Source: an uncultured bacterium
GTDB taxonomy: Bacteria; Verrucomicrobiota; Lentisphaeria; Victivallales; UBA1829
NCBI GenBank assembly: GCA_949290385.1
Contig: CASERY010000068.1
Coordinates: 1 to 42,748, forward strand
Direction: 5' to 3'
Length of the DNA: 42,748 nt
In this document: piece by piece, positions 4,554-42,608 of the stretch
Layout: the number at the start of each line of letters is the position of its first letter
Position numbering within the stretch: the first letter of the stretch is position 1
Made by a program: the position numbers and the translations under genes
Notes under the pieces: model-generated
What the model saw: only the letters and a program-made list of their open reading frames with translations
What the model was told of the DNA's origin: nothing
Databases searched by the model: none

Positions 4554-5033
4554 TCAGTGGCGGGATCCCAGCTGACGTCTGGCATCCAGATCGTCCTGGC
4601 GTTTTCGAAGAGTTTCCCGCTTATCCTCAAAATTTTTGCCTCGGGCAACGCCCAGCTCCAGCTTGACAAAGCCGCGAACAAGGTACATTTTCAGAGGAAT
4701 CAGTGAAAAACCTTTTTCCTTGACTTTGTTTGAGAGCTTCAGGATTTCCTTTTTATGCATCAGAAGCCGTCTTCTGCGGACGGCATCATGATTAAAGCGG
4801 TTTCCGAAACTGTACGGGGAAATGTGAAGTCCGAAAACATACAATTCCCCGTTTTCGATCCGTGCAAAGGAATCCTGAAGCTGGACAGAACGCATTCTGC
4901 AACTTTTTACTTCAGTTCCGCGCAGTTCAATGCCCGCTTCCATGGATTCAAGGATTTCATAATCATGGAAAGCCTTGCGATTTCTGGCGATAACGCCTTC
5001 ATTGCTGTTCTATTCGTTTTCTTTCTTGGCCAT
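4554..5033 (-). CDS. smpB: SsrA-binding protein SmpB, with an in-frame TAG at codon 8
   Basis: SmpB binds tmRNA and brings it to stalled ribosomes for trans-translation. From the ATG at 5033 the frame runs 159 residues to TGA if the TAG at 5012-5010 is read. The conserved N-terminal strand (VIARNRKAFHDYEI, codons about 13-26) aligns well with SmpB of other bacteria. It lies after the TAG but before the next in-frame ATG (codon 31), and no ATG, GTG or TTG lies between TAG and this segment. A start at codon 31 would therefore delete part of the fold. Downstream motifs GTEVKS, HISPYSFGN and the basic RRRRLLMHKKEI region are normal. The gene begins 28 bases after dnaJ and closes the chaperone operon. 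TAG as Gln gives MAKKENEQN. Confidence 0.93.
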
Positions 5034-5061
5034 CTTTCATCCCTACAGGGAGAGGATTCCA

Positions 5062-6246
5062 TCATGAGTGAAGGAATCTTTCTGCCTTTCTGGTGAATTC
5101 CTGAATTTCAGGCTGGTTTGCAGGTGTCAGCGATTTCAGAAATTCTTCAAAGAGTTTTTTCTGATTGTCATTAAGTCCGCTGGGAATTTCCACTTTGACC
5201 TTGACAAGCTGATCGCCGCGTGTTCCGCCTTTCAATGCGGGCATCCCTTTGCCACGGATTCGCAGAGTTGTGCCGTTCTGTGTTCCGGGTTTCAGTTTGA
5301 GCCGTGTTTTTCCAGTAACAGTCGGCACATCTATAATGCCTCCATTGACAGCAGTTTCCAGAGAAATCGGCACCTCGCAGAGAATGGTGGTTTTTTCACG
5401 CTGGAAAACGTTGTGGGGACGAATCTTGATGATTACCATAAGATTGCCAGGTGCACCGCCATGGAGTCCGGGCTCTCCTTCTCCCGCAATTTTCAGCTTG
5501 GTCCCGTTGTCGACTCCGGGTGGAATGTGCATCTGCAGATCGCGTTCCTCCTTCATGCGGCCGCTTCCTCCACACTGGTGGCAGGGATTTGTGACAACCT
5601 GGCCTGTACCGTGGCAGGTTGGACAGGTATCCACGGCCTGAAAAAGGCCCTGACCCACCTAAACCTGGCCTGTACCGTGGCAGGTCGGACAGGTCTGCTT
5701 TGTGGAACCGGGTTCTGCTCCGCTTCCTCCGCAATGCGTACAGAGTCCGTCCCTACGGAAGCGGATTCTCTTGTCTGCTCCGAGAATTGCGTCTTCAAAA
5801 TCAATTTCCAGCTCATAGCGCAGATCATTTCCGTTGCTGGCAGCGGATCTGCCTCTGGAACGCCGTTTTCCTCCTCCAAGAAGATCCTCGAAGGAGAAGG
5901 AACCGCCGGCTCCGCCGAAGACCTGACTAAAGATGTCTCTCGGGTCGCTGAAGCCGGAGAATCCCTGAAAGCCTCCTGTGCCGCCAGGTCCTGCACCGCC
6001 GCCGGGGGCGTGCCCGCCTGCTTTTTCAAACAGGTCCGGACCGAACTGGTCGTACTGAGAGCGCTTCTGAGGATCGCTCAAAACTTCATAAGCCTGAGAG
6101 ATTGCTTTGAATTTCTCTTCAGCAGCCTTGTCTCCGGGATTTTTATCCGGGTGATATTTTACCGCAAGTTTGCGGTATGCTTTTTTTATCTCATCGGCAG
6201 TGGCTGTTTTAGCCACACCGAGCGTTGCATAATAGTCTTTCGCCAT
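5062..6246 (-). CDS. dnaJ: Co-chaperone DnaJ, with an in-frame TAG at codon 196 in the zinc domain
   Basis: DnaJ (Hsp40) delivers substrates to DnaK and stimulates its ATPase. Read through TAG at 5661-5659, the frame is 394 residues, normal for type I DnaJ. Domains in order: J-domain with HPD at 32-34, Gly/Phe-rich linker at about 75-130, four CxxCxGxG zinc repeats starting near 169, 186, 208 and 222, then the two C-terminal beta-sandwich domains. The TAG sits between zinc repeats 2 and 3, in GQV-TAG-VGQG. E. coli DnaJ has GQVQMRQG there, so Gln fits directly. Termination would remove repeats 3 and 4 and the substrate-binding domains. GAGG seven bases before the ATG supports the start. The gene ends in TGA and lies between grpE and smpB. 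Confidence 0.95.
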
Positions 6247-6330
6247 AATAGTACCTCATATTTTTCAGGCGGAAAATCATTTATGGCCACGCCTGTGCGT
6301 TTTTCCGCGAAACGCAGAAGGAAAACAAAC

Positions 6331-6987
6331 TTATTTCCCCTCTTTTTCTCCGGGCCCGGAACTGACAATGACCATTGCCGGTTTCAGCAGACGGTCCCCC
6401 ATGCGGTACCCCATGTTCCACTGACGCAGAACTTTTCCCGCAGGCGTGGTGTCGGAAGGTTCCTGGGATACAGCTTCATGAAGTTTCGGGTCGAAATCTT
6501 TCCCTGAAGCGTCGATTTTTTCGACTCCAAGATCTGAAAATGCTTTGTCAAATTCCTGCTGGATCATATCCATGCCTTTTTTCAGAGCCTCGACATTCTG
6601 AGCTTTTTCAGCGGCATTTACAGCCATGGAAAAATGGTCAAAGACCTGAAGGAAGGGGAAGAGAGTGTCCTGGATTACATGATAGCGCAGATTCTCCATT
6701 TCTCTGGCAAAGCGCTTCCTCTGATTGTCCATTTCTGCAAGGGCAAGAAGACGGCGGTTTTCTGTATCTGCTACTTTCTTTTCCAGTTCAGCAATCTGAT
6801 TTTTCAGCGTTTCTTCGGTTGTTTTCTTTTCTGTTTTTTCCTTCGGGGCCTTGGCTGCGGATGCCTGAGGCTGATCTGGAGTATTCTTGCCGGTATTGGC
6901 GTCCTGGACTTCCGCCTGAGCTGAAGTCTGGACATTCTGATCCATGGAGCCGGCTTTGCTGTCACCTGAATTATTTTCTTTGCTCAT
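6331..6987 (-). CDS. grpE: Nucleotide exchange factor GrpE
   Basis: GrpE releases ADP from DnaK. The protein is 218 residues from the chosen ATG at 6987 (MSKENNSG). The N-terminal about 60 residues are polar, rich in Gln, Ala, Lys and Glu, and probably disordered. A long coiled-coil helix follows (LKNQIAELEKKVADTENR onward). The C-terminal beta domain carries family motifs such as FDPKLHEAV and VLRQWNMGYRMGDRLLKPAMVIV. An ATG 30 bases further upstream (7017) is possible, but GGAAG lies just before the chosen start. Ends in TAA. It sits between clpB and dnaJ; dnaK is not in this window. Confidence 0.93.
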   Translation of the reverse strand: MSKENNSGDSKAGSMDQNVQTSAQAEVQDANTGKNTPDQPQASAAKAPKEKTEKKTTEETLKNQIAELEKKVADTENRRLLALAEMDNQRKRFAREMENLRYHVIQDTLFPFLQVFDHFSMAVNAAEKAQNVEALKKGMDMIQQEFDKAFSDLGVEKIDASGKDFDPKLHEAVSQEPSDTTPAGKVLRQWNMGYRMGDRLLKPAMVIVSSGPGEKEGK

Positions 6988-7068
6988 CTTATGCTTCCCA
7001 AACATCATAAAGTTCAAAAGTTGTTTCTGTTAAGCGGCATCGGCTGGTGGAAACCGGTCATACTATAG

Positions 7069-7101
7069 TGCCGGACAGATATTTTTTCAATCTGTCCGGC
7101 A
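7069..7101. other. Strong hairpin between clpB and grpE
   Basis: A perfect 12-base-pair inverted repeat (7069-7080 with 7090-7101, TGCCGGACAGAT type) encloses a nine-base T-rich loop. It sits 18 bases past the clpB stop. No T-run follows on the minus strand, so it is more likely an mRNA processing or stability element, or a weak attenuator, than a full terminator. TATAGT on the minus strand just beyond it could serve a grpE promoter. Confidence 0.55.
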
Positions 7102-7118
7102 GTCGGATTCCTTGATTA

Positions 7119-9752
7119 TCAGCTGCGTTTCCCGTGCTCAGAATTTTTCTTGCAGGCAAAGGCAAGTTTCTTTCCGGACGAGTCTTTGGAAATCTCAAGA
7201 CGCATGCCTTCGTGGAGTTCGCCAGAGATCAGCAGACGTGAAACAGGAGTTTCGATGTCCTGCACGACCACACGCTTCAGCGGACGGGCGCCGAACTGTG
7301 GATCGTATCCTTTTTCCGCCAGAAAATCTTTAGCGTCATCCGTCATGGTATAGGTGATATTCTGTTCTGCCAGATGTTTTCCAAAGGCGGCCAGCTGGAT
7401 ATTCAGAATGTCGCGAATCTGTTCCTTCTTCAGCGGCTGGAACAGCAGGATGCCATCCACACGGTTCAGAAATTCCGGACGGAACTCACTTCTGAGAATC
7501 TTCATGAGCTGAGGACGGAGGGCTTCCACATCCGGGGCTTTTCCGCCTGCCGCGCTGTCCAGAATCAGATCACTGCCCAGGTTGGAGGTCATGATGATAA
7601 TCGTATTTTTGAAACTGACAGTTCTGCCGTGAGAATCTGTCAGCTGTCCGTCATCCAGAATCTGGAGGAAGAGGTTGAATACGTCTTTATGGGCTTTTTC
7701 AATTTCATCGAACAGAACGACCGAATAAGGACGACGTCTGACGGCTTCCGTAAGTTGTCCGCCTTCTTCAAATCCCACATAGCCCGGTGCTGCACCGATC
7801 AATCTGGACACACTGTATTTTTCCATATATTCAGACATATCGATTCGGATGATGGCTCTTTCATCATCAAAGAGGTCCTGTGCCAGCGCTTTTGCAAGTT
7901 CCGTCTTGCCCACGCCCGTGGGACCCAGAAAGATGAAGCTTGCAATGGGTCTGTTCGGATCCTTCAGACCGGAACGGGATCTGAGAACGGCATCTGCAAC
8001 GGCATCAACAGCTTCATCCTGACCAATGACTCTGCGATGGAGCTCATCGGAGAGGTGGAGCAGTTTTTCCCGTTCACTTTGCACCAGTTTGCTGATGGGA
8101 ATATGGGTCCAGCGACTGACAATCTCGGCAACATCCTCTTCGGTGACTTCTTCCTTCAGAAGACGTTTCTCCGAGTCTGTGGAATCGGCCAGCGCCTTTT
8201 CCGCAGCGGCAATCTGTTTCTGAATGCCGGGAATGATGCTGAAACGGAGTTCTCCGGCTCTTTCCAGATCGGATTCACGTTCAGCCTTGTCCAGATTAAC
8301 TTTTGCCATATCCAGGCTTTCACGGAGTTTGCGCATGTTTCCGATGGCATTCTTTTCGGTATCCCAGGAAGCGCGCATCTTCGCGGTTTTTTCCTTCAGT
8401 TCTGCCAGCTCCTTCTCCAGTTCCTGGCGGCGCGCTGCGGAGGCGGAATCTTTTTCCTTTTTCAAGGCAGAAAGCTCTATTTCCAGACGCATGCACTTGC
8501 GTTCCAGTTCATCAATTTCTGAAGGACAGGAATCGATTTCTGTCCGGAGTTTTGCCGCAGCCTCGTCAATGAGGTCAATGGCTTTATCCGGCAGGAAACG
8601 GTCTGCAATGTATTTGTCGGAAAGGGTTGCCGCTGCAACAATGGCCGAGTCACGGATCTTGACTCCGTGATGGACTTCATAACGTTCCTTCAGACCGCGC
8701 AGAATGGCAATGGTATCTTCTACATTGGGTTCTGAAACCACAATGGCTTGGAACCGCCGTTCAAGTGCCGGATCTTTTTCAATGTATTTGCGGTATTCAT
8801 CCAGGGTCGTGGCTCCGATGCAGTGCAGTTCACCACGGGCAAGCATGGGCTTCAGAAGATTGCCTGCGTCCATGGAGCCTTCCGATGCGCCTGCGCCGAC
8901 AACGGTATGGAGTTCATCAATAAAGAGAATGATGCTGCCGTTGGAAGAGGAGACTTCCTTGAGAACGGCTTTCAGACGCTCTTCGAATTCACCTCTGTAT
9001 TTTGCACCGGCAATCAAAGCTCCCATATCCAGAGCAATAATCCGCTTGTCTTTCAGGGATTCCGGAACGTCTCCATGAACAATCCGCAGGGCCAGACCTT
9101 CCACGATGGCGGTCTTGCCTACACCGGGTTCTCCGATGAGCACAGGATTGTTCTTGGTTCTACGGGCAAGAATCTGGACTGCTCTACGGATTTCGTCATC
9201 ACGGCCGATTACGGGGTCCAGCTTGTCCTGAGCGGCACGTTCTGTCAAATCGCGGCCGTATTTTTCCAGGGCTTCAAAGGAAGTTTCCGGGGTCTCGCTG
9301 GTTACACGTTGATTTCCGCGGACCTGTTTAAGCACGTTAAGGAAAGAATCGCGAGTAACTCCAGCCTTTTCAAGAATATTTCGGCAGGTGGAATCAACGG
9401 CCATAATAGCCAGCATTAGATGTTCCACGCTGATATATTCATCGGTCATTTTTTCTGCGTTGTTTTTCGCTCCAATAAGGACTTCACTGAAGGCACGGGA
9501 TGTATACGGATTCTGTGCACCTGGACCTGAAACAGAGGGAATTTTATCCAGTTCAAGATCAATGGCGTTTTCCAGCTGAGGAATATTGACATTCATCCTT
9601 TTGAGAATGGATGGAATCAGCCCATCCTCCTGGGACACCAGGGCTTTCAGAAGATGAATCGGGGAGATTTCCTGGTTGCCGCGCTGTACGGCGGATTCCT
9701 GAGCCTGCATCATGGCGGCTCTGGATTTTTCAGTCAATTTCTGCATATCCAT
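7119..9752 (-). CDS. clpB: ATP-dependent disaggregase ClpB
   Basis: ClpB is the Hsp100 disaggregase that works with DnaK/DnaJ/GrpE to rescue aggregated proteins. It is 877 residues, close to the usual 860. Domains in order: N-terminal Clp repeats (1-145), first AAA+ module with Walker A GEPGVGKT at 207-214 and ILFIDELH at 275-282, the coiled-coil M-domain at about 405-530, and the second AAA+ module with Walker A GPTGVGKT at 610-617 and sensor region GARPLKR near the C-terminus. AAAGGAG ten bases upstream supports the start; an ATG two codons later is possible. It ends in TGA and has no in-frame TAG. It heads the clpB-grpE-dnaJ-smpB group; no CIRCE element was seen upstream. Confidence 0.97.
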
Positions 9753-10525
9753 AGTTCATAATCTCCTTTGGGTGATTTTATTTTTTTTTACTTTTACATC
9801 TTATTTTCGATAGCATTTTTTATGCCAGTGTTCCAGGGGATCTTTAAGATAATGATTTTCAATGGATCATAAAAAATGGACAAATAAAAAGTGTGGGACA
9901 TTTTGACGCATATTGAGACTCGGCTGCCATTTTGTTCTCTTCTCCACCTGCCATTTTCTGAGATTGTCTTCTCTCTATTCATTATAGTTATTACTGTTTT
10001 ATGATTCTTCATTTTAGAGCAAGTCTAGTTTTCGTTTCATGCGGATTCGACCTTAATGGTCTGGCTTGCCGGGTTTACATTCAGGAGGACTTTTTCTATC
10101 CGGCGAATTTCCAGCTTGATGATCTGCTTCTTCTAGTTCTTTTAGCCGGAATGATCTACCAATAGACAGAAAGAGGGAGGTCGCATACAAGCAGTCTTGA
10201 CAGAAAACGGCAAATGATTTATAATGTATAATTCGGAAGGGCAGTTGCTTTTCCAGGAGCAAAAATCCTGCCTGAAAATGGTCTGGAATTATCAATATCA
10301 TCTCTGAAGTCTTGTGGATTTCGGTGGTAGAAATACCGCCTGAAGATGGTTTGGAACAGGATAAGATGACTCCCGTTTCCATCTCCTTATGCGTGCTTAA
10401 CGGAACCGGATTGAAAGGGGCGGGGGGTGACAGAATGGAACCGGTGTCGGGCAGAGAAAGAAATCCTGCTTGAGTTGACAATAAAAGATGCCTTGTAAGA
10501 ATAAAATAAACTGAGGTTGATGAAA
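9753..10525. other. Long divergent intergenic region between clpB and the GH123-like gene
   Basis: This 773-base gap holds the promoters of two divergent genes. It contains a pair of imperfect 19-base repeats (separate entry). A stretch at 9880-9960 resembles degraded repeat or insertion-element debris: AAAATGGCAG occurs twice on the minus strand and a GTGTGGGACATTTTG motif is present. Several short frames on both strands (for example near 10001-10234 plus and 10053-10160 minus) look locally protein-like but lack start signals or contain TAA/TGA, so they are at best gene remnants. Confidence 0.4.
10270..10356 (+). repeat. Pair of imperfect direct repeats
   Basis: GCCTGAAAATGGTCTGGAA at 10270-10288 recurs as GCCTGAAGATGGTTTGGAA at 10338-10356, 17 of 19 identical and 68 bases apart, upstream of the GH123-like gene. 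They could be tandem binding sites for a regulator of that gene or leftovers of a duplicated segment. No inverted symmetry is evident. Confidence 0.5.
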
Positions 10526-12124: not shown

Positions 12125-12266
12125 AAAGATATCCTCTGTAAATAAAAAGGTGGCAGCCGTAAAGGAAAAGGAGGGTATATTTTAGTAGAAACAGGGAGGA
12201 TTGGATTGTGCTGACAAGATAACGGAAGAAAAGGTTGTCCGCATTTTTTCCCGGGATTTTTTTCCA

Positions 12267-12282
12267 AAAAGGTGTCTGTCCC
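12267..12282 (+). repeat. Short dispersed motif, copy 1
   Basis: AAAAGGTGTCTGTCCC here matches AAAAGGTGTCTGTTCCC at 40046-40062 apart from one inserted T. From memory, closely similar AAAAAGGTGTCTGTCC strings recur in non-coding DNA of many bacteria, often near IS200-like transposase genes, so this may be repeat debris. No transposase is nearby. Confidence 0.45.
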
Positions 12283-12357
12283 TTATCTTTTTCCCTGATG
12301 CGTTTTTCCCTAAAGTATACTCCAGAAGACTGCAGGGGAATTAATCTTTAGTTCCCT

Positions 12358-20326: not shown

Positions 20327-21685
20327 ATGAGCGAAAATAAAAAAGAAGCCTGCTGTTCTTTCTGCGGACGTCCGGAATCAGAAGTGGGGCCTCTGATTGC
20401 AGCTCCTTCCGGGGCGGCAATCTGTAAAAATTGCATTGACATTTGTGAAGAGGTGTTTCAGGAGCACAGCGGAAAGGGTGCATCGGCTAAGGCAGGTGCA
20501 AAAATTTCATCCTTTGTCCAGAATTTGAAAGTTCCGACTCCCGCAGAAATCAAGGAAGTGCTTGACCGGTATGTCGTTGGCCAGGAAAGAACAAAAATGG
20601 TGCTTTCAGTGGCGGTGTACAACCATTACAAGCGTCTGCAGTCCAAAACTGCGACTCCTGTCAATCCGGAAAGTCCGGATGGGAATGATGACGACGGTGT
20701 GGAAATTGAAAAAAGCAACGTCCTTCTGATCGGGCCAACAGGGTCTGGAAAGACTCTGATTGCCAAAACTCTTGCAAAACTGTTGGATGTCCCGTTCTGT
20801 ATTACAGATGCTACAACATTGACTGAAGCCGGTTACGTTGGAGAAGATGTGGAAAACATCATTCTGCGCCTGGTCCAGGCTGCGGATTACGATGTGGAAA
20901 AGGCTCAGCTCGGGATTATTTACGTGGATGAAATTGACAAGATTGCCAAAAAAGGTGAAAATGTATCCATTACCCGGGATGTTTCCGGCGAAGGTGTTCA
21001 GCAGGCGCTTCTGAAGATTCTGGAAGGGACTGTTGCCAATGTTCCGCCCAAAGGCGGACGCAAGCATCCCCAGCAGGAATATTTGCATGTGGATACGACG
21101 AATATTCTGTTTATCTGTGGCGGAGCTTTTGTGGGGCTCGACAAAATGGTCCAGCGCAGAGTGGGACATCATGTGCTCGGATTTTCTGCCGGGTAGCAGT
21201 CGTAGAGTGACAGTCAAAGCTCTTCAGAAAAAGAGGTCAGCCTTGATGATGAGAAGGTCCTTTCCGCTGTCGAACCGGAAGACCTGGTCCGTTTCGGTTT
21301 GATTCCGGAGTTTATCGGCCGTCTGCCTGTTGTTACTGTTTTGGATCCGCTCAGCCGGGAAGATTTGCTCAAAATTTTGGTGGAGCCAAGAAATGCTGTT
21401 ACACGGCAGTATGCAAAACTTCTTGCAATGGAAGGCGTTTCTTTGAAATTTGAGCAGGGCGCTCTGGAAGCTCTGGCGGAACAGGCCAGTGAAAAAGGAA
21501 CAGGCGCTCGTGGACTCCGGTCTCTGATTGAAAATCTCATGGTGCAGATTATGTTTGATCTACCATCCCGCAAGGATGTAGGAGAGTGCATTATTACGGC
21601 TGATACCGTTCACGGAAAGTCTGGACCTGTCCTGATTCCAAAGGATAGTGCTGGCGGGGATCATAAAAGAAAGAAAAAAGCCTGA
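20327..21685 (+). CDS. clpX: ClpX unfoldase, with in-frame TAGs at codons 290 and 293
   Basis: ClpX unfolds substrates for ClpP. With both TAGs (21194-21196 and 21203-21205) read, it is 452 residues ending in TGA. The zinc-binding domain has Cys10, Cys13, Cys33 and Cys36; Walker A GPTGSGKT is at 136-143, the pore loop GYVG at 169-172 and Walker B IIYVDEID at 197-204. The TAGs fall in the variable loop after GFSAG, where E. coli ClpX has GFGATVKAKSD. Conserved sequence resumes in frame: [22 protein letters not shown], then sensor-2 GARGLR and the C-terminal small domain. Termination at TAG would remove sensor 2 and the small domain needed for hexamer function. The TAGs are two codons apart in a Ser/Gln-rich loop, so Gln is plausible. 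AAGGTGAT precedes the ATG. Confidence 0.95.
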
Positions 21686-28047: not shown

Positions 28048-28160
28048 CAGTTCGGCTTTTCTTTGTCTGGCTGTCCGTTCTGTTGTGATCGGGGGGTTGT
28101 GTGAGAAGAGAAGTGGCTGTATTCTGATCTTCTTTGCAAAACCGGATCAGAGGAGAAAAT

Positions 28161-30809
28161 ATGTTTTTTGAAAAACCGATGATGCATCTTTCGCATATTC
28201 CGGTTAAATACCGCCGGTGCTGTGTTGTGCTGACAGGGGCGTTTGTGTTTTCCTGGGGAATGGTGTTCTGTTTTGCAGAAGATCTTGATTCTGCAATTCC
28301 GCAGGGGCTGCTGTTCAATACCGAGGCAAGAGCTGTAAGTTAGCCGGGTACACCGGAATACCGGGACAAAGTTTCCGGAGATCTGGCATTTGATTCCGGA
28401 GACTTTGCCATTGCTGCAAGTTTTTACCGGAAATACCGGGAAACCGCAGAAAAGCAGCAGGATGACGCCGCAAGACGCAATGCCTTTGAATGCGAAGTGG
28501 ATGCCCTGATTTTTGCTGGTCTTGCGGATCAGGCGGAAGTTGTGCTGAAGGAATTTGAAGAAGCATATCCAGACGGAGTCAATGCAGTATCCCTGGAGAT
28601 CTGGAGAGCGGACATTCTTCTGAACAGACGGGAAATCCCGGAGGCGGAGAATGCCTTGTCCAATATTCTGCCGAAATTATCGGCGGTGGATCCCCGCCGT
28701 ATCCGGGTACTTCTTTCACTGGCCTACGCATACGAATTGAACAAAGACTATCGGAAGGCCGCAGAAATTTACGGTACAATTGCCGGCAAAGATGCCAGTA
28801 CCCTTATCGGCCGTCGTTCTGCCGAGCGCAGGATCATGAATCTGATTGCTTCCGGGAACACGGAACAGGCCCTGAGTGAACTGAAACAAATTAAACTGGC
28901 AGAAAACAGCAGAGACCTGAATGCGCTGAAACTCCTGAACTTTTATCTTCAGTTAAAGTCGAAAAATGACGCGGAATCTCTAAAAAAGTCCTGGCAGGAG
29001 ATCCGGAATCTTGCACCGGAATCTGTTTCAAGAACCAACGATGCCTTTTTTTCTCTGATTTGCGGATTGATTGGTTCCGCGCTTGAAGAAAAAAAACAGG
29101 ACAGTGCGGCTTTTGAAGCATATCGGATGGCTTATTCATTTTCCGGATCAAAACAGGATTCTTTTCATTTTATGGAGTCCATGGTAGCATGTCTGGACCG
29201 CCTGGACCGTGCAGAAGAAGCTGCAGATCTGGCTCAGCGCGAGTTCGAGCTTTTTACCGGACCTTTTGCAACGGTGGACATGCGAATGCGTGTGGCGCAT
29301 GTCCTGGCAAAAGCCGGACGAGGCAAGGAAGCAAGAACAGTGCTGACACAGGTTGTGCTGAATGCCCCGCTGAAGGATGAAGGAAATAAGAGAACGCTTT
29401 TTCTGGAGTCTCTGGACATGCTTCTGGCTGCAAGTCTGTTTTCAGATGCAGATATGCTGGTCAACGCATGTTATCCGGATCCGGATTCCTATGAATCGCT
29501 GAATGGGCATAAAAAGGTATTATTGGCTTCCGGACATCAGAATGAAGCGGTGGCTGTCTGCCGGGAAATTGGTGAAAAGTATCCGGAGCATCGTCTGGCG
29601 GCTTATGAGGAGGCGGCAGATCTCTGCCGCAGCTTAAGGGCATATACAGATCTGATTTCGTTTGCGGATATGATTCTGGCGGAAGATCCCCAGAACCCTG
29701 TGTTGTTTTTGCGTGCTGGTGCTTATGAAGTGCAGGGGAAAAATGCCGAAGCAAAAAGGGATTATCTGAATTTTATTCAGAATATGAAAGGGCAGGGAAT
29801 GACCGACTCTCTTGCTCAGGCATATTACCGGGGGGCCCGGGTTTGTATGCTCTGCGGAGATTCGGCAGAACTGATTCTGCCGCTGTTTCGCAACTTGTTT
29901 GAAAAAATGCCTTCACATGAATTGGCGCCTTCTGCCGGATACTGGATGGTTTATCTTGAATTGGGACAGGGCAATGTTGAGGAAGCAGAACGCCTGTGCA
30001 GCGTGCTGACGGAGAGGTATCCGGACCATGAATCCACGTTTTCCGCACGTTTGAGACTGGCGCTTCATGATTTGGATGCAGGAAACAAGGATCGGGCAGA
30101 AAGCGCTCTGATTGCTTTGGAAAAATCCGAGTATCCGGCTATTCAGGCTCGGGCCTTGTTTGAGAGAATGCGCATGCTTTATGGAGAGAAAGACTGGGAG
30201 GGTGCCCGAAAGTGCATTATGGATCTGGAGCAGAAATTCCCGGATGATCCATGCCTTTCAGACGCCTATTATTTTGCAGGAGACATCAGCCGGGCTCAGA
30301 ATCAGTTTGCCGAGGCGGTGATATATTACCGCAGGGCTGCGGCAAAGCGTCCCGGATCTCTGCTGGAATAGGCATAGCTTGGATCCATAGGAGACTGCTA
30401 TTTTGCCATTGCGTGTTCCACAGACCGTCGGGATCCGCTGGGAGAAGCAATTGCATCCTATGAACAGTTGCTGAAGTCTCCGGCACTGCTGCCGGAACAT
30501 ATTGCAATGGCTTATTATCGTCTGGGCCGTTGCTATGTTATGCTGGAAGACGATGACAATGCATTAAAAAACCTGAAAACGCTTCTTTACTGTGTTCCTC
30601 CTGAAGAGGCGGAAAGACATCCGCTGGAAACCTACTGGATCGTAAAGGGCGTGAATCTGCTGGAGCAGATTGCTCACAAGACACCGCTCCCGGAACAGTG
30701 CGAAGCTGCAGTTCAGGCATTGAAATGGCTTGAAAAAAGCGGAATTCAGGATTATGAAAGTGTGCAGAAACGAATTCTTGCGGTGCATAAACTGCAGAAG
30801 AGACCCTAA
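28161..30809 (+). CDS. Exported TPR-repeat protein, with in-frame TAGs at codons 61, 737 and 739
   Basis: With three TAGs read (28341-28343, 30369-30371 and 30375-30377) this is one 882-residue protein ending in TAA. Residues 1-38 look like a signal peptide. The rest is built of tetratricopeptide-like helical pairs (for example ALDRLDRAEEAADLAQREF and the C-terminal IASYEQLL and MAYYRLGRCYVM units). The reading frame is open and TPR-like on both sides of each TAG. The 737-739 site reads LLE-TAG-A-TAG-LGSIGDCYF, and Gln-Ala-Gln there makes a normal TPR helix. AGGAG precedes the ATG. It starts a five-gene cluster with ExbB/ExbD-like genes, suggesting a periplasmic scaffold for an energised envelope complex (inference). 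Confidence 0.88.
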
Positions 30810-33054: not shown

Positions 33055-33126
33055 AATATTTTCTTTTTGTCTGTTATTAGAAGAATACTGCAATAGCGGA
33101 ACGCAATATGAGAAGGCTGCAATAAA

Positions 33127-33630: not shown

Positions 33631-33699
33631 GAAAAGTCAGTTATCCTGCTGCCGGGTACAGCACACATGATCGGATAAAAATATCCATCCAGGGAATAG

Positions 33700-33798: not shown

Positions 33799-33911
33799 AC
33801 CGAAAAAAAAGACTGCTGAATGGGAAAGTTCGCCTGAATACTGGAAGTCTAAAAGATTTCCAGGTCGAAAGAAAGACAGAAATTCAAAAAATCGATCATA
33901 CTGAAAAAATT

Positions 33912-34646: not shown

Positions 34647-34669
34647 CGACTTAACAGGGAGGAGAGAGA

Positions 34670-35032
34670 ATGATTTCTGTATGGGATTTGATGCCTTGAG
34701 GTGCATATACAGATATTTTTCTTGCATCTAAGGGAATCAATGAGCTGTACCAATTTTGCATTGAACAATCCTGGATTCCTGATAATTTTTCTGTGAGGAA
34801 GAATCATACAGCAAAGGATTTTGTTCTTTCCCGTAGATATGGTGTGATGGGATTCATGCTTAATGTCCGGATTTTTTTACAGCTGTTTCAGAAAAAACTA
34901 TCTCCTGAGCTTTTGCGGTGTTTTTTGCCCTTGAAAGGAAAAGAAGGCTTAAAAGGTAGAGTCCGAAAAAGAAGAATGCGAGAAGGAAACACATTTTTCC
35001 CTTCTCGCAATTATTTTATTCCAAGAATGTAA
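34670..35032 (+). pseudogene. Possible gene remnant with an early TGA
   Basis: A strong ribosome binding site (GGGAGGAGAGAGA, 34657-34669) precedes ATG at 34670. The frame hits TGA at codon 10, then stays open for about 110 codons to TAA at 35030-35032, encoding a basic protein I do not recognise. TGA is a normal terminator in this genome, so this could be a nonsense-broken gene, a nine-residue leader peptide, or chance. The 3' end overlaps a terminator hairpin, which argues against function. Confidence 0.25.
34977..35009 (-). terminator. Terminator hairpin for the PpiC gene
   Basis: TGCGAGAAGG (34977-34986) pairs perfectly with CCTTCTCGCA (35000-35009), with an A/T-rich inner extension. On the minus strand a T-rich stretch (TTCTTCTTTTTC) follows. 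On the plus strand ATTATTTTATT follows, so it may work in both directions between convergent genes. Confidence 0.65.
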
Positions 35033-35040
35033 AATAAAAA

Positions 35041-36198
35041 TTATTCTGCATCCTGGGGTGCTGCATCGTCAGAAGATGTTTCCGGAATATTGACAACGAC
35101 ATTCATGGATTTACGGAGTTCTTCCAGATGTTTCAGGATATTTTCAGTATTCTTCTGGTTGGCGATGTAGCTTTTGACTTCCTGGCTGATATTTTCGAAT
35201 GGGATGTATTCAGCAGGTGTTTTCTTATCCAGGCGGATGATGTGGTATCCGAAGGGGGTTTTCACCTCTGTGGTTTCACCTACATTCTGGATGGAATAAG
35301 CGGCTTTTGTGAAGTCTGGATCAAACATATTGTTATCGATGGAAATACCATCTTCCGTGAAGGCGGGGAGCTGACCCTTGGAATTCTTGCCGCTGGGGCA
35401 GTCGCTGTACTGGGCAGCAAGATCTTCAAACTTCTGACCTTTGGCCAGTTTATCCTTGACTTCAGCGAGTTTTTTCTGAGCTTCAGCATCCTTTTCCTTT
35501 AATTCTGCCTCAGACAGATTCTGGCTGTTCATCTGCTCTGTAGGTGCAAGAATCAGAATGTGAGAAACTGTAATATTGGCAGGAGTCTTGAAGTCTTCCT
35601 GATTTTCACGGTAGAACTTTTCCGCTTCTTCATCCGTAATATCTTTGGGAAGAACTGCAATGTTTTTAGACTGGAGATAGGCGTTGATAGCAAAATAATC
35701 CAAACTGGGCGCATAGGTCAGAATCTGATCAATGTAATTTTCAAGCGTTGTATTCTGTGCTTTGAATTGTTCATTGAGCTGATCCTGTTCCTCCTGAGGA
35801 AGTGCTTTGAAATTTTTCAGAAGAAATTCCTTGGCCATTTCAGGAGTCGGTTCGAATCCGGCCTTTTTAGCCTAGGACACGAAGATCTTCTGGTTGATCA
35901 TATCCTGAACTACGGACTGAATGGCCTGATCTGCGTTTGCTTCAAGCATGGGATTGAAACGGAGCAGCTGGTTGAGCTGGTCCATGACTTCCTGCTTGGT
36001 AATGTCCTGACCATCGACTGTTGCGATGACATCGGGATAGGATTCCATGGCTTTGTCAACCGCAGAGGTATCGCTTTGCAGAAGTTCAAGAGGAATGCTC
36101 TGATTGTCCGCCTCTTGGGCCAGTGCAGGAGCAGCGGATACTGCAGTACAGACAGCTGCCGCTGCAGCCATCATTATGTGTTTTGTCGTTTTTTTCAT
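35041..36198 (-). CDS. Periplasmic PpiC-type peptidyl-prolyl isomerase, with an in-frame TAG at codon 109
   Basis: A 385-residue exported foldase when TAG at 35874-35872 is read. Residues 1-27 are a clear signal peptide (MKKTTKH, Ala-rich core, cleavage after ALA). A SurA/PrsA-like N-terminal helical region follows. The parvulin domain is at about 205-320, with VSHILI, FEDLAAQYSDCPSG and TPFGYHIIRL motifs. The TAG lies in the helical region, in MINQKIFVS-TAG-AKKAGFEP. Relatives have an INQKLLLQ(E/Q)AKKAG-like run there, so Gln or Glu fits. Termination would leave a secreted stub without any isomerase domain. GAGAGG is seven bases before the ATG. It ends in TAA. It follows the lipoprotein gene on the same strand. 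Confidence 0.92.
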
Positions 36199-36348
36199 GA
36201 TAAAAACCTCTCTTCTATTGGGTTATGTTGAAAAATCGTGAACTCTGACAGCATTCAGACATCCGGGAATGCCGCGCTGCTGACAACAAGATATATGAAA
36301 ATGGCAGATTTTTCAACCTGCCGCAGAATAAAAACAGGAAAGCATCTA

Positions 36349-37098
36349 TTAATGTTCAGTGCTTTTTCCTGACAAAACATCGCGGGAAATCTGAAAATAT
36401 CCGTTCTGGACTATTTTTTTCCAGGGAACTCCGCCCGGATCCTGGATAGACAAAATTGTGGAAATGGTTTGAAATTTTGCAGGATCTCCTTCCTGAAGGG
36501 CGTCATATGCATCGAAATAAAGACCTGTATACAACCGGTCCTTCTCAAGCTTTGCGAGGACTTCTGAATCTTGGATTTTCTGATCTGCATACTGTTTGAT
36601 GAAGGCCATTTCCGGAGAAGCCTCACAGTAGCGGGCCAGTTTTTCAGCGGAGGCTTTCATAATTGGAGAAGAAACCGGGGTATTCAGCAGATTCAGCAGA
36701 CTGTTTACCTCTGTGAGAATGCGCAGCTGGTCGCGAGTCTGAACCAGGGAAGGGATGCCTCCAAGTTTGCGGACAGCTTCATCAATGCAGTTAGACGCTC
36801 CATTGATGTCATTCCGGGCAATTTTTTCATTTGCCTGAAGAATATAAGCATTGGTGTGAAGAATTCTTTCCATTTGCGGGATAAATTCATTGGAGGGATC
36901 CAGAGCCTTATAGCGTTCAAGTTTTGCGGACGCATCTTTGTAGTCTTTGCGGTCCAGAGCCCTTATGATGTCCAGAAGCAGGTTGGAACGTGTGGATGGA
37001 ACCTGCACTTCATTATCTCTGCGGCATCCGGCTCCGGAGAGAATGCAGGAAAGAATTATGGCAGCAGCAATAAAAAAGGATAAAAAACGCAGTTTCAT
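36349..37098 (-). CDS. Hypothetical lipoprotein
   Basis: A 249-residue protein. The signal sequence (MKLRFLSFFIAAAIILSCIL) ends in a lipobox-like SGAGC, so it should be lipidated at about Cys25 and attached to a membrane. The mature part is mostly helical with TPR-like features (YKDASAKLERYKALDPSNE, GDPAKFQTISTIL). No family name is evident. The ATG at 37098 gives the proper signal peptide; an upstream ATG at 37131 adds an unlikely extension and neither has a strong Shine-Dalgarno. It ends in TAA. It lies 150 bases upstream of the PpiC gene and may be cotranscribed with it. Confidence 0.8.
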   Translation of the reverse strand: MKLRFLSFFIAAAIILSCILSGAGCRRDNEVQVPSTRSNLLLDIIRALDRKDYKDASAKLERYKALDPSNEFIPQMERILHTNAYILQANEKIARNDINGASNCIDEAVRKLGGIPSLVQTRDQLRILTEVNSLLNLLNTPVSSPIMKASAEKLARYCEASPEMAFIKQYADQKIQDSEVLAKLEKDRLYTGLYFDAYDALQEGDPAKFQTISTILSIQDPGGVPWKKIVQNGYFQISRDVLSGKSTEH

Positions 37099-37577
37099 TA
37101 TAAAAATACCATCTTGGTTGATTTTTTGCATGGAGAGTATCTTGCACCGGATTGGAACGTTCCTACAGAAAAGAATACGCCGTTTTCAAGCTCCCATTCC
37201 AGAGGCGCCGGGATACCACTGACAAATTAGCAGATCCTGGAATTTTTTCAAATGAAATGGTCCGTTATTTGGAAAAAGACACATTAAAAAAATAAGAAAT
37301 ATCCTTTTTTCTCCTTTCTCTCCGGAGAAGAAGGTGAATAGCTGATTTTTTTAAGCAGTCTATGGAGAATGAAAGAAGAAAAACAGTTGAAAGACAGTCA
37401 TTCCCCATATAATGTATACACTGCACCCCCCTCCCGAGAAAGCGGGCGACGGGGTGAGGCATTGAAATCATCTGAAAATCGTCCAGACGGACCAGAATGA
37501 TAAGGGTGCTGTGCTGTTCACCTTTTTTCGTGCAGATTTTTACAGAATTGAATGACCGGAGAGGAAAGAATCAAGAA
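37099..37577. other. Divergent intergenic region before the first hydrolase
   Basis: A 479-base AT-rich gap. On the plus strand a perfect TATAAT (37408-37413) lies 15 bases after TTGAAA (37387-37392), a candidate promoter with short spacing. A plus-strand frame upstream of the chosen hydrolase start (from 37497) could extend that protein by 27 residues. No other coding signal is seen. Confidence 0.4.
37387..37413 (+). promoter_or_regulatory. Candidate promoter with perfect TATAAT
   Basis: TTGAAA (37387-37392) and TATAAT (37408-37413), spaced 15 bases, about 165 bases ahead of the hydrolase ATG. The spacing is shorter than ideal. Confidence 0.35.
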
Positions 37578-39971
37578 ATGGAAAGCCCCGACTTTTATAA
37601 TCCAGACTGCTGTAATAACAACGGTAAGTATCAGATTGTCTGCGGAGATCAGCAGCTTGTTTTTGACCCTGCAAGCGGGCCGATGCCCAGAAGTGTATCG
37701 GTAAAACGTTTTGACGGATCATTTCTGCCGGTGATTGTCAACCGTGATCCCGGATTTTCCATTGCCGATGGTGAAGGACGGGTCTTTTTTCCGCGTTTGA
37801 CAGAATCACCCCTCTTTTCCAGAGAGAACGGGGCGGAGGTGGTTCGATTCAACCAGGTGGAATTTTTTACTGCCGACGGGGAAAAAGGAAAAGATTTAAC
37901 GGCATCATTTCAGTATGAAATTTTTCCGGACGGGACTGTTTTTACAGATTGCTTCTTTCTTTCAAATCGGGCAGACCGGCGGGTTTTTCAGGATTTAAAA
38001 ATTTCTTTCAATACCGACGTTTCCGGCTTTGATGATGTCCGTTATGCTTTGCTGCATCGGCCGGCAAAGCAGGATGGCGCAGTGATTCAGGACCTTTCAC
38101 CGAAGCGCTTTCAGGAACGGAATACCCCCTTGAATTTTTCTGAAATCCTTCCACTTGCAACATTCAACTGCTTTGAGAACAATGGAGAGGATCTGTATTT
38201 TGAGTTTTTCATGGAAGGTGGAACAACGCTTTCCGGCAGGCCGGGTGAAAACAGTACGCTGCTTTCATGGCAGAATAATTCTCCTTCCATTGTCTGGAAT
38301 TTCCAGACGGTTCCTGCAGAAAGGGAGCATCTGGTCTTTCAGTTCCGGAACCGCTGGGGATGGTCTGTCAAGACACCTCCGAGAGAGCGGCATATGCCTC
38401 CATTGACAATGTATCACTATTTTGACAATACTGTTCGTTATCCGTCCGAGAATGTTCTGGAAGCTCTGCGCGACTCCTCCTGTGATGTTCTGATTATCCA
38501 CGAAAACTGGCGTCTGGATATTCAAAACGGAGGAATACCGTTCAACGAGAAGGAACTGAAAATGGTTATTGAAAAAGCTCATTCCTTTGGCATTCGAATA
38601 GCGTTGTATATGCGTGGAGCGGAACTTTCCGCCATGGAGGATTTCTGTTCCTGGTTTGACCGTTATCTCAGAAAAGATTATGACGGACTGTATATGGATT
38701 ACGGCGGAGCGATGACTCATACAGAAGGCCCCTCTGAAAATTTCGTGAATGGCCGAACCTTTTTCCGCCGTCAGTATATGAAGCTGAGGTCTCTGCGCGA
38801 AAGAGTCGGAAAAGACGGCTTGTTTTTCTCCCATACCGGCACCCATTATGCGGCACTTGGCATGAATTTTATGAACGGCTACGTCTCTGGAGAAGGAGAG
38901 CGCGGGATGTTGATCCGCGGATGGAAGCAATACCGTTATTTCAGTATGACATCCGGCAGCTGTGGAACGTTGTGGAGTGCGGCCTTTCCGGAGTATTCAA
39001 CCCGGAGAATCATTCCTTTCATTGCTTCTGCCGGACAGTATCCTCACTCAGCGCTTGGAGAACAGTTCATCTCCTGCAGTCTGGTTCATCCCAAGGAACC
39101 CGGGATTAATGACCGGGCTTTCCGTCCGCTGTGGAAACTGTGGAAAATGTTCGTCCATGAGCGGGATATTGCCGTATACAATGACTTCAACAGCAAAAGC
39201 GTTTTTTCTTCGGAGGCTCAGACCGGGCACTATCTGATGATTTCGGAAGATCGTCAGCGGGCTTTGCTGATTGTCTCCAATTTCGCCGCAGAAAAGCGTA
39301 CAGTTCATGTTGCTGTGGACTGGAACAGACTGCCTTTTTCTCCGGAAGACAGACAGATTTATCTGCTTGCCCCGGATGAAAATACCCCCGGCCAAGTGCA
39401 TAAGATGGAAGACCCGGAGCTGACCGTATCTCTTGACGGATTCGGCTGTGCAGGTTTTTATTTTACTTCGGATCAGCCTGATTTCAAAGAATTTTTGCGT
39501 CCCTATCATCAGGTATGCATGCCGGAAGGCAAGGCATGGCTTGCTGAAATCAAAGAGCAGAAGAAACTGCGTGAGAATCCGCCTCGCTGGGAAAGGGTCC
39601 TGCTGACTTTGAAGATTGCGGATATGCCTGCATTCGGCTATGAGGATTCCATGACGGTGGACCTTTTCCTCAATGAATCGTATATCGTGGAATTCAAGGA
39701 GGACGGTTCATTTCAGAAACTCTGTGAAATTGTTACAGAGGACGGACACTCTTTGACCACAGGGGAAATCTCTGCTCCAGTTGATCTGGGACAGTTGCTT
39801 GGACCCGGAAGACATCATCTGGGGGTCTATGCAACGCATCTTGGAGAACCATTTTATTCGTTCTTCATTGCAACCTTGTCCAATGGAACGGACTCCAGCT
39901 ATGATATCGTATTCCGCAATGATCTGGAAGATGACCGGGCATTCCTGCACTTTGATGTGCTGATTCCGTAA
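37578..39971 (+). CDS. Putative glycoside hydrolase with TIM-barrel domain
   Basis: A 797-residue protein from ATG 37578. The first about 270 residues are beta-rich, as in N-terminal sandwich domains of GH36- and GH31-like enzymes. The middle has barrel-type strands: DVLIIHENWRLD, GIRIALYMRG and DGLYMDYGG, whose Asp is a good catalytic candidate, plus FFSHTGTHY. A C-terminal beta-sandwich follows. No signal peptide is seen with this start; a start at 37497 would add a Cys-rich, weakly hydrophobic leader. It ends in TAA and contains no in-frame TAG. Family membership (DUF6259- or GH36-like) and substrate are uncertain. It lies upstream of the DUF4091 gene, suggesting a glycan-degradation locus. 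Confidence 0.72.
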   Translation: MESPDFYNPDCCNNNGKYQIVCGDQQLVFDPASGPMPRSVSVKRFDGSFLPVIVNRDPGFSIADGEGRVFFPRLTESPLFSRENGAEVVRFNQVEFFTADGEKGKDLTASFQYEIFPDGTVFTDCFFLSNRADRRVFQDLKISFNTDVSGFDDVRYALLHRPAKQDGAVIQDLSPKRFQERNTPLNFSEILPLATFNCFENNGEDLYFEFFMEGGTTLSGRPGENSTLLSWQNNSPSIVWNFQTVPAEREHLVFQFRNRWGWSVKTPPRERHMPPLTMYHYFDNTVRYPSENVLEALRDSSCDVLIIHENWRLDIQNGGIPFNEKELKMVIEKAHSFGIRIALYMRGAELSAMEDFCSWFDRYLRKDYDGLYMDYGGAMTHTEGPSENFVNGRTFFRRQYMKLRSLRERVGKDGLFFSHTGTHYAALGMNFMNGYVSGEGERGMLIRGWKQYRYFSMTSGSCGTLWSAAFPEYSTRRIIPFIASAGQYPHSALGEQFISCSLVHPKEPGINDRAFRPLWKLWKMFVHERDIAVYNDFNSKSVFSSEAQTGHYLMISEDRQRALLIVSNFAAEKRTVHVAVDWNRLPFSPEDRQIYLLAPDENTPGQVHKMEDPELTVSLDGFGCAGFYFTSDQPDFKEFLRPYHQVCMPEGKAWLAEIKEQKKLRENPPRWERVLLTLKIADMPAFGYEDSMTVDLFLNESYIVEFKEDGSFQKLCEIVTEDGHSLTTGEISAPVDLGQLLGPGRHHLGVYATHLGEPFYSFFIATLSNGTDSSYDIVFRNDLEDDRAFLHFDVLIP

Positions 39972-40025
39972 ATCCGGTCGCAGGACATGCTGGCCTCATC
40001 CAAAAAATAATACTGGATGAGGTCT

Positions 40026-40118
40026 GTCTGCAGAATGCAGAAGGTAAAAGGTGTCTGTTCCCAGGAATTCCACATTCCATTTAAGGATGGTTCACTTGGT
40101 CTGCAGAATGCAGAAGGT
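40026..40118 (+). repeat. Pair of exact 20-base direct repeats
   Basis: GTCTGCAGAATGCAGAAGGT occurs at 40026-40045 and again at 40099-40118, 73 bases apart. Each copy holds a small CTGCA/TGCAG hairpin. The reverse complement contains CTGCATTCTGCAG, similar to the CTGTATTCTG core of the repeats at 33700-33798. Confidence 0.7.
40046..40062 (+). repeat. Short dispersed motif, copy 2
   Basis: AAAAGGTGTCTGTTCCC, matching 12267-12282 with one extra T. It directly abuts the first 20-base repeat. Confidence 0.45.
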
Positions 40119-40649
40119 CTTTATAAGTCCATGTTTATCTCAAGACCTGGGCATGAGAGCATGGAGTAAAGGGGGGATTTGTTTTGGATCCCGTCTGTCT
40201 TGTTGTTTCTGCAGATATTCTCTTATGATGCTGCCTGGAAGAGGGGAAAAGCATAAGCAACACAAAGGTTTTCTTTTCTGCAGAGATGGCGACCGTTTAT
40301 ACTGGAAAGACCGGAAAGTAAATGATTGTCCGGAATTATGCAGCCTGCCTGAGTGAGATTCAGAATGGGATCGATCAGAAGGTGTGATTCGGGAATGGAG
40401 GAGGAAAAAGGAGAGAAGAAGAGGAGAATTTTGAAAGTCTTTTTTTGTGTATGCGGGATTGTTTTTTTATTTCCCCGGAAGTATTGTGTGGAACGGCGCA
40501 GCCAGATATGACATGGTTTTTATGCACCTGTTATCGTTTTTTTGAACAGGATCTTGCGGCGCAAGGAAAAGAGCTGATCCGGCAGAACAGAGAAAATGGG
40601 TTCGCCGGGACGATTTTCAACCTCGACTTTTGAAAGGACACCAGAATTG

Positions 40650-42608
40650 ATGAAAATTCCGTTTTCCGCAGGAACGCTGTTGCTTTGTCTTGCAGGCGTT
40701 TTTCTACTGCCAAACCCCGGATATGCGCAGCTGGAAAAGATATCCGGAGAAGCTGAAAAAGTCTATGTCCAGCGCCGCGCGGAACTCCAGGAAGATTCAA
40801 AATCTTCCTGGATGCGGATTCATTTGAACAATGTGGCTCAGAATCCGGAAGGAACCGGCGTAGTCAATGCTGTGCGTGTGGCTGGAGATGTCCAGAACTG
40901 TACTACAGAGGCAGACAGTCCATTTGTTTATTATGATGTGCCTGCCATGAGTGAGATTCAGCGTTTGCCTGATGTTTATCCGGTGGATGGATCTGCCATG
41001 TCTCCGGTGAGAATTCTCATGGCCCGCAATGAATATGAGCCGGGATCTTTTGTTATTTATCCGCTTGCGGATCTTGGGAAAGTGGAATTCCGCCTGAAGA
41101 AGTTCGTCAATGAAAAAGGCGATGTGTTTCCTTTGGACAATCTGGATCTGAAAGTCGTAAAGGTTTGGTATCAGAATGGAAACGGATGGTACAGCTATTT
41201 CGGCGATACTGAATTGAAGCTGGTGCCTGAACTGCTGCTGAATGACGAGGACCTCATTGAGGTGGATGAGGTGAAAAAACAGAATTATGCCCGTCTGATT
41301 TTCCCGGATGGAACCGTATTCCGGGAATGGCTGACCGCCCCTCTGGATATGGACAGGCGAAATGCTCAGACCGGGGTGTTCAAACCCATGGCAAAATCCT
41401 TCCGGGATGCGGCAAAACTTCAACCTGTTGCGCTGAAAGAGGGGGAATTCAAGCAGTTTTTCCTGACGGCTCATACAGATCAGAACACTCCTTCCGGATT
41501 TTATCAGGGATCCGTGGAGCTGGTCCGGAATACGAATGTAATCGGAAGCATTCCGGTGGAAATCCGGGTGCTGCCGTTTGAACTGCCGGAGCCCAGAAGT
41601 TACTTTGATCTGAATAAAGAATATCTGACGACGTTGATGTCGTACTGCAGTCTGGAACTTATTGGCCTCTATAATGGGGGCGATTATGAGCTGGCCCAGA
41701 AGCAGTATCAGAAAGTCATGGAGAACAATCTGAAACATAATCAGAAAACTCCCTAGAGCCGTGGACATCCTGATGAATACGAATTCTGCCGCATGGTGGA
41801 TCTGATGCATCAGGCTGGATACCATTTCAGTTCCTTTTACGGGGGGGCTGCCAAAGGAAACAACCAGCTGGAATGGCGTCATTATGCAAAATTGTACAGA
41901 AAATGGTTTCAGGATTCATGGATTTTTCCGAAAGATGCGAATATTTACATGGGATATGGAGATGAACCTTCCGCAGAAGGGGTGATCCGGACGTTCCCAA
42001 GACTGGAAGCTTTTCAGGATCAGGGATTCAGACTCGGCCAGAGCGGGCATGATCATCTGTTTGATACAGGAGGATTTTTTTACAGCGGAGTTAATCTCGC
42101 CTCGGATCCCACGGACCGGACATCAACGCGCAAATGGAATGAAGTGGGATATGCCAATGTGGCATGGTATGCCGTTCAGCATGTGGGGCTGGAAAACCCT
42201 GCCTTTACCAGACGGCAGTATGGTCTTGGCGCATATCTGGCAAATTTCAGTGCAACCAATAACTACGCACATCATTTCGGTCCTTACAATGACCGTTCCA
42301 TTACGTACAAACCCATGGTTTTAGCCTATGGTTGTCATGACGGAGTGATTGACACCATTCAGTGGGAGGGATACCGGGAAGGAATTGATGATGTGCGTTA
42401 TGCTACTCTTGTAAAGATGCTTGCCCGGGATATTCTTGAAAAAGGCAGCACTGTCCAGGGGAACGAGGCGCGCAAGGCACTGATGTATCTGGCGGAGCTG
42501 GACAACACTGAATGTGATTTGAATATGGTCCGGCTGGAAATGATCCGCATGATTCTGCATCTTCAGGCCGTCCTGGATGAATGCGCAGACGGCAAGAACT
42601 AGAAATAA
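40650..42608 (+). CDS. Secreted DUF4091/GH123-like glycoside hydrolase, with in-frame TAGs at codons 369 and 651
   Basis: A 652-residue protein when TAG at 41754-41756 and 42600-42602 is read. Residues 1-26 form a signal peptide (cleavage after GYA), so it acts in the periplasm or outside. A beta-rich N-terminal domain is followed by the DUF4091-type catalytic region: the acidic MGYGDEPS motif (probable catalytic Asp-Glu) and the closing TIQWEGYREGIDDVRYATLV motif. The first TAG sits between QKTP and SRGHPDEYEF, in the middle of the protein, with conserved frame on both sides. The second is followed by AAA and TAA, so the gene still ends within two codons. The same motif set occurs in the protein at 10526-12124. 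Termination at codon 369 would delete the catalytic half. Confidence 0.86.

Follow-up and report, generated by a model that had tools for sequence, protein, structure and literature searches.

How does a bacterium read the triplet TAG when it occurs, in frame, ten times in the conserved genes of a single contig? This question is raised by a stretch of 42,748 nucleotides from an uncultured member of the Lentisphaeria (contig CASERY010000068.1 of assembly GCA_949290385.1, our contig C68; this whole stretch is called the window below), in which six genes, smpB, dnaJ and clpX among them, carry such triplets. A reading of the window from its letters only had proposed that TAG is a sense codon in this genome, probably for glutamine. 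Our analysis suggests that UAG most likely specifies alanine, that it is read by a predicted tRNA-Ala(CUA) encoded outside the incomplete assembly, and that prfA, the gene for release factor 1 (RF1), has been lost; we regard this combination as probable, with appreciable room left for the other readings discussed below.

TAG as a probable sense codon

The genome to which the window belongs (G000) is a draft of 2,680,693 bases in 168 contigs (completeness 78.5%, contamination 2.0%), and it is the sole representative of its genus among the 36 genomes of the family that were searched. The closest matches of its DnaJ come from uncultured Lentisphaeria, several of them labelled rumen, at 62% identity or less, and by RpoA its nearest relative is genome G008 (87% RpoA identity), which has prfA and is without in-frame TAG. 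For a view beyond the window, 725 kb of G000 (42 stretches) was compared with 2.19 Mb of sequence from relatives, consisting of 100 stretches of genome G028 and 13 named loci. Open reading frames (ORFs) of the relatives of at least 60 residues were aligned to the DNA of G000, the best-scoring frame was retained, and codons were counted within the alignments, provided that at least 5 of 14 neighbouring residues were identical and that the codon lay at least 5 residues from the alignment end. A preliminary tally (TAG 26, TAA 17, TGA 53) was discarded, as it had been spoiled by antisense ORFs of the GC-richer G028 (GC content 0.58, vs 0.46 for G000).

Among 61,439 aligned codon columns, 55 were TAG, 5 TAA and 16 TGA. 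Nine of the 21 TAA and TGA columns stem from one wrong-frame alignment (stretch L135), and several of the remaining ones were judged to be gene ends or non-coding. When the comparison was mirrored by aligning ORFs of G000 to the DNA of G028, only 3 TAG, 1 TAA and 7 TGA were found in 69,437 columns, so the excess of TAG in G000 (55/61,439 vs 3/69,437) is highly significant (Fisher p 4e-15). The TAG columns are spread over 46 ORFs and 21 of the 31 sampled contigs, the other ten contigs contributing 0 to 6,489 aligned residues, and amount to about 0.9 per 1000 aligned codons. Within the window, 7 of the 10 TAGs lie in aligned columns that passed the filter, with zero TAA or TGA there, in agreement with the initial statement that the interruptions of its genes are always TAG. 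The proposal that TAG is a sense codon is thus strongly supported outside the window as well.

Individual genes give the same picture. Three genes for resistance-nodulation-division (RND) transporters of G000 carry 1, 6 and 3 TAGs, and no TAA or TGA; the efflux gene with six (contig G000:C97, L146:1150-4266) is far above the genome average. The RND genes of 20 other genomes were free of TAG, and by score 17 of these genomes are without prfA; of the 21 other genomes below the prfA cut-off discussed in the next section, this comparison covers the 17 without a prfA-length match and G001, leaving out G098, G101 and G113, and one of the genomes compared, G148, has only a single weak RND match. The gene for RpoA has a TAG in G000, and the matched stretch is stop-free in 60 of 60 relatives, although in G023 the match is incomplete and does not reach the site. 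The protein collection that we used contains a 295-residue MraY (P0242), representing four contigs, that is identical to the protein of G000 over its length and ends at the TAG.

Whether TAG still ends genes was considered for 152 G000 genes in which the C-termini of the homologues were reached. The first TAA or TGA was TGA in 82 and TAA in 70 of these. In two genes a TAG coincides with the expected end or lies close to it (offsets 0 and +9) and is followed three codons on by TAA or TGA, and a third has a TAG at +27 with a stop at +49, so that a TAG gene end is possible in at most 3 of the 152. This is a weak test, since the corresponding genes of G028 rarely use TAG as stop either (4/156).

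Probable loss of release factor 1

A search of G000 with the prfA model (TIGR00019) gave as its best match the gene for release factor 2 (RF2), at 268.7 bits vs a cut-off of 423.25, and otherwise only a short stretch of 49 bits. RF2 terminates at UAA and UGA only. The RF2 of G000 scores 523 bits and has the SPF and GGQ motifs, and its own gene contains an in-frame TAG. A short stretch at G000:C30:60903-61076 has a weak release-factor match (49-56 bits) and is perhaps an ArfB-like rescue factor.

In the class as a whole, prfA scores above the cut-off in 175 of 197 genomes. The 22 below it are G000, four genomes with weak or partial matches (G001, G098, G101, G113) and 17 without a match of prfA strength, which are 54 to 92% complete. 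As 21 other genomes of the class also fall below the cut-off, absence by score alone would be weak evidence. Several of those without a match of prfA strength (G016, G034, G108, G117, G173 and others) are 69-92% complete, and their RND genes are without in-frame TAG.

Gene order was used to distinguish true loss from a gap in the assembly. In 37 of the 38 relatives that have both genes, rpmE is the immediate upstream neighbour of prfA, on the same strand (places read by eye). The exception is G008, where rpmE and prfA stand on different contigs (C14 and C22), and where rearrangement of this region may already have been under way; in this genome an ABC transporter gene follows prfA. In G000, the gene that comes 399 bp after rpmE encodes an ABC transporter, which is the best match to that of G008 in the sampled sequence (identity 50.6%, 360 residues aligned, 405 bits; the next best scores 218). 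The interval between rpmE and the transporter gene was searched and contained no prfA remnant (best E 0.5). In G028 other genes, not that transporter, follow prfA. The ancestral order would appear to have been rpmE-prfA-transporter, with no single genome examined showing all three. An ordinary prfA, for which the sequence-only reading had advised to look, was accordingly absent both by score and at the expected locus. Since both the genome-wide profile search and the gene order point the same way, prfA has likely been lost from G000, although the search covers an assembly that is 78% complete and a copy may lie in the missing part. Conserved genes with TAG in frame number in the dozens, and a gene for RF1 was not found; UAG therefore likely serves as a sense codon in this organism.

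These observations also bear on the suggestion that the interruptions represent ordinary pseudogenes, assembly errors or contamination. The draft state of the genome, with 78% completeness and 2% contamination, would invite such an explanation, but TAG is the only strongly enriched stop codon, occurs on 21 of the 31 contigs sampled and in housekeeping as well as other genes, and goes together with the missing prfA at its expected locus, which makes this explanation highly improbable.

The residue inserted at UAG

The identity of the amino acid was examined in deep columns covering 11 TAG sites in four genes (the three RND genes with 6, 3 and 1 TAG, and mraY with 1), for each of which 119-120 homologues from the protein collection were aligned; the RND gene with one TAG uses the homologue set of the first RND gene. 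Counts exclude P0242, which is the truncated MraY of G000 itself, and columns with less than 70% coverage, and the queries used to collect homologues read TAG as Q or A, which gives a slight bias. Alanine occurs in all 11 columns, whereas serine is seen in 8, threonine in 7, glycine in 6, glutamine in 5 and lysine in 4. Alanine appears at 97.7% of the 301 columns with alanine codons and glutamine at 89.5% of the 114 with glutamine codons, while at other codons alanine appears in 34%. Three columns are occupied almost entirely by small residues and have no glutamine: MraY 297 (A74 T28 S13 G3 F1), RND 379 (S53 A44 G17 C6) and RND 748 (A107 S12 G1). Other RND columns favour polar residues, with alanine as a minority: 113 (Q86 K19 R12, A1), 661 (T87 Q23, A1), 305 (K31 E20 D14, A8) and 695 (K60 R42, A5).

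With a likelihood ratio for which codons of known meaning in these alignments served as training set, the 11 deep columns gave +16.5 bits for Ala, -1.7 for Ser, -7.9 for His, -11.2 for Gln, -11.9 for Thr and -19.1 for Lys. In a validation with sets of 11 random variable columns (top share at most 0.8), the correct residue was returned in 198 of 200 trials for Ala, in 188 of 200 for Gln (never Ala) and in 199 of 200 for Ser, the test being trained on the same columns. An MraY with 78% identity (P0241) has A at the TAG site, the RpoA site is A in G008 and G016, and the 12 TAG sites that could be read in G008 show A5 K4 S1 G1 L1 and Q0. In structure alignments from the Protein Data Bank (PDB), the site of a WaaG-like protein is A in 4 of 4 among the matches listed (three from one protein), that of RpoA is A in 3 and V in 1 of 4 among the matches listed, and that of RuvA is A in all 3 alignments that reach it, two of them of E. 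coli.

The wider set of 55 TAG columns, for which a single relative gives the residue opposite, is less clear (A11 Q7 K5 E5 S4 T4 P3 V3 D2 L2 R2 F2 and five singles), and a number of points from this and other tests weigh against alanine. A pooled single-relative likelihood, built on the assumption that TAG is a settled codon, puts Gln first of the 20 amino acids with Ala 17.2 bits lower, and Q is above background at TAG columns (7/55, p 7e-4) more clearly than A (11/55, p 0.02). The top residue at TAG reaches 20%, vs at least 37% identity for every sense codon with more than 30 columns, and TAG columns show above-average variability (median top share 0.47 vs 0.76). Differential scoring did not discriminate, either with Pfam (20 proteins, A-Q close to -2.0 bits) or with NCBIfam (A-Q +1.0 and A-S +3.6 over 10 proteins). 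The 11 deep columns come from 4 genes, of which 3 are RND paralogues, with a single homologue set serving for two of these, and MraY was selected once its site had already attracted attention; if it is left out, the likelihood ratio becomes 13.0 for Ala and -2.7 for Ser. Furthermore, the YebC site (Q in G028) is K in 5 of 5 PDB alignments, the RF2 site (also Q in G028) is D in 2 and Q in 3 of the 5 alignments among the matches listed, and two PilC sites are D and F in the sole PDB alignment that reaches them, with D where G028 has Q. Thus, of the sites with Q in G028 that were checked in this way (YebC, RF2, PilC, RuvA), only RuvA shows A.

Glutamine, as in translation table 15 and supplied by a so far undetected tRNA-Gln(CUA), gains from its first place in the pooled likelihood and its enrichment over background, as well as from the occurrence of table 15 in gut phages as reported in the available excerpt of PMC9523058. 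If UAG were a glutamine codon, however, silent change from CAG to TAG predicts Q at about 44% of the TAG columns, the share found at CAG and CAA columns, whereas it is seen in 7 of 55 (p 5e-7), and A is commoner at TAG columns than a glutamine codon would allow (p 4e-4). None of the 12 sites read in G008 is Q (chance 9e-4), glutamine is absent from the three small-residue columns, and its likelihood ratio is negative. Glutamine is therefore an unlikely assignment, and the earlier "probably glutamine" finds support in one cruder test only.

Serine and, after it, threonine are the other small residues to be considered, given their presence in 8 and 7 of the 11 deep columns. Seryl-tRNA synthetase, too, ignores the anticodon, and the only serine tRNA found in the assembly is Ser(TGA). 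Serine fits 18 bits worse than alanine and is unseen in 3 deep columns, and although TCG to TAG would be a silent step for a serine codon, S occurs at 4 of 55 TAG columns vs 41% at TCG. Assignment to one of these residues seems as doubtful as that to glutamine.

The settled-codon model fits no residue at TAG, which would also be expected if UAG had been left unassigned after the loss of RF1, with read-through by near-cognate tRNAs, mixed residues and rescue by transfer-messenger RNA (tmRNA), as in E. coli deleted for RF1. Unassigned UAG in the recoded E. coli leads to insertion of Q, Y, D and V, frameshifting and tmRNA tagging, according to the excerpted text of PMC6207430, and both tmRNA and SmpB are present in G000. 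The variable nature of the TAG sites is in line with this. On the other hand, TAG occurs at about 0.9 per 1000 codons, up to 6 times per gene and also in RpoA, RF2 and MraY, of which mostly stalled ribosomes would deprive the cell, and sites that accept almost only A, S, G or T would receive Gln or Tyr. We consider an unassigned codon very unlikely.

UAG is also the codon for pyrrolysine, and mixed aligned residues would fit a genome-wide code for this or another 21st amino acid. PylS was found above its cut-off (178 bits) in none of 37 genomes including G000, the best match of which was 20 bits, and a pyrrolysine code was rejected on this basis; its probability is very small indeed.

tRNA complement

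If alanine is the residue, a cognate tRNA should exist, and it counts against the proposal that no tRNA with a CUA anticodon was found in the G000 assembly, either in the 46 tRNA matches obtained with Rfam at E 0.001 or in the single additional one at E 10. ARAGORN typed 45 of the matches, and one is partial and reads as tRNA-Glu. With introns allowed, ARAGORN found no CUA tRNA on the 725 kb of G000, and at a very low threshold it produced a flood of 2854 candidates, 7 of which are labelled cta. Because other expected tRNAs (Ile GAT, Ala TGC, Ser GCT, GGA and CGA) are likewise missing from the typed set, and the assembly is incomplete, this absence is weak evidence, and we predict that a tRNA-Ala(CUA) exists outside the assembled part.

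Some other features of the tRNA genes may be mentioned. A tRNA-Gly(TCC)/tRNA-Tyr pair is present on two contigs (G000:C5 and G000:C158), and close pairs were also noted for tRNA-Arg(ACG), Asp, Glu(TTC) and Leu(CAG) (C16, C38, C43, C63). The tRNA-Gln(TTG) at L037:412-485 starts with G and, read by eye, has a G1:U72 pair, which is unusual for tRNA-Gln. On viral contigs (L244-L296), 53 stretches match a CUA tRNA-like pattern and ARAGORN types 63 CUA tRNAs; they are labelled tRNA-Pyl(cta) among the 14 matches listed, and 2 of the 63 have a G3:U70-like pair by a crude reading.

Genes of the window

All ten TAGs reported for the six window genes were located and are in frame (Table 1). With TAG read through, five of the six proteins match their Pfam families; the sixth, earlier described as a DUF4091 hydrolase, matched no Pfam (E 1e-3) or NCBIfam (E 1e-8) family, so that this label could not be confirmed. 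Two of the window sites are uninformative as to the residue. The smpB column has K in 9 of 11 matched loci and a gap in 2, and the dnaJ column is variable in 47 DnaJ sequences (V11 R6 H5 S4 G4 T3 Y3 N3 A3 Q1, gap 4).

Table 1 Window genes with in-frame TAG codons
Gene or product	Position	Strand	In-frame TAG	Family match
smpB	4554..5033	-	5010-5012 (residue 8)	Pfam SmpB, read-through frame
dnaJ	5062..6246	-	5659-5661 (residue 196 of read-through), zinc-finger domain	Pfam DnaJ
clpX	20327..21685	+	21194-21196, 21203-21205, both in poorly aligned stretch	Pfam ClpX
TPR protein	28134..30809	+	28341-28343, 30369-30371, 30375-30377	Pfam TPR
PpiC-type peptidyl-prolyl isomerase	35041..36198	-	35872-35874	Pfam PpiC
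Large ORF, earlier labelled DUF4091	40596..42608	+	41754-41756, 42600-42602 (latter two codons before TAA)	

A possible route to the proposed code

The observations would be reconciled if RF1 has been deleted and UAG has become an alanine codon throughout the chromosome, in a change so young that TAG is found mainly at tolerant sites, a scenario that we judge reasonably probable. In such a course of events, UAG would first have become rare as a stop codon, as it is in G028, which would ease its release, and RF1 would then have become dispensable and been lost. A tRNA-Ala could subsequently have acquired a CUA anticodon; alanyl-tRNA synthetase reads the G3:U70 pair of the acceptor, not the anticodon. 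TAG is one step from CAG, AAG, GAG, TCG, TTG, TGG, TAT and TAC, and two steps from any alanine codon, so that, if UAG stands for alanine, TAG arises by replacement at tolerant sites. It may thus have spread through point mutations, chiefly of CAG, AAG, GAG and TCG, at positions where alanine can be accommodated. The enrichment of Q at TAG columns may then be a mark of mutation from CAG to TAG (C to T), which would be the commonest step. By this route, relatives would show Q, K, E and S at variable positions together with an excess of A, matching the pattern observed.

Relation to known codes and implications

In bacteria that have recoded UGA, the release factor that was lost is RF2. These organisms resemble G000 in that a stop codon of a bacterial genome has naturally turned to sense and the release factor for it is gone, but the codon is UGA there, and UAG with probable loss of RF1 in G000. 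As far as the available part of PMC8629427 goes, UGA was reassigned to Trp in Mycoplasmatales and endosymbionts and to Gly in Absconditabacteria and Gracilibacteria. The Codetta survey described in the same excerpt lists only UGA among the earlier-known bacterial stop codon changes, and its five new bacterial codes all concern arginine codons (PMC8629427). Some crAss-like phages use UAG as a sense codon by code 15 (PMC9523058, excerpt), with glutamine in phage genes, whereas in G000 it is chromosomal genes that are affected and the aligned residues do not fit glutamine.

The same codon and the same predicted residue are found in the mitochondria of green algae of the Hydrodictyaceae and Neochloris, in which UAG specifies Ala and was scarce in relatives before its reassignment, according to the accessible text of PMC6821328; this scarcity is comparable to its rare use as stop in G028. 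The algal case differs in that a tRNA-Ala(CUA) was found and that the genome is mitochondrial (PMC6821328, same text), whereas here a bacterial chromosome is concerned, RF1 is apparently lost and the tRNA is a prediction. A literature search, with most subscription papers and preprints outside it, gave no sense code for UAG in a bacterial chromosome among the matches listed. If true, this would to our knowledge be without precedent in bacteria, both as a natural UAG code and as an alanine codon other than GCN.

Recoded E. coli from which RF1 has been deleted keeps RF2. It has no RF1, as is probable for G000 too, and like G000 possesses tmRNA, but it is an engineered organism from the genes of which UAG was removed, as far as the excerpt of PMC6207430 describes it, whereas in G000 UAG is in use. 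A natural UAG code with loss of RF1 would, if true, be nature's counterpart of this engineered strain. Furthermore, gene calls with translation table 11 in this lineage will be truncated, as exemplified by MraY P0242. A young change, with relatives such as G008 that still have prfA and are without in-frame TAG, would make it possible to test in which order the disappearance of the codon, the loss of the release factor and the change of the tRNA have taken place.

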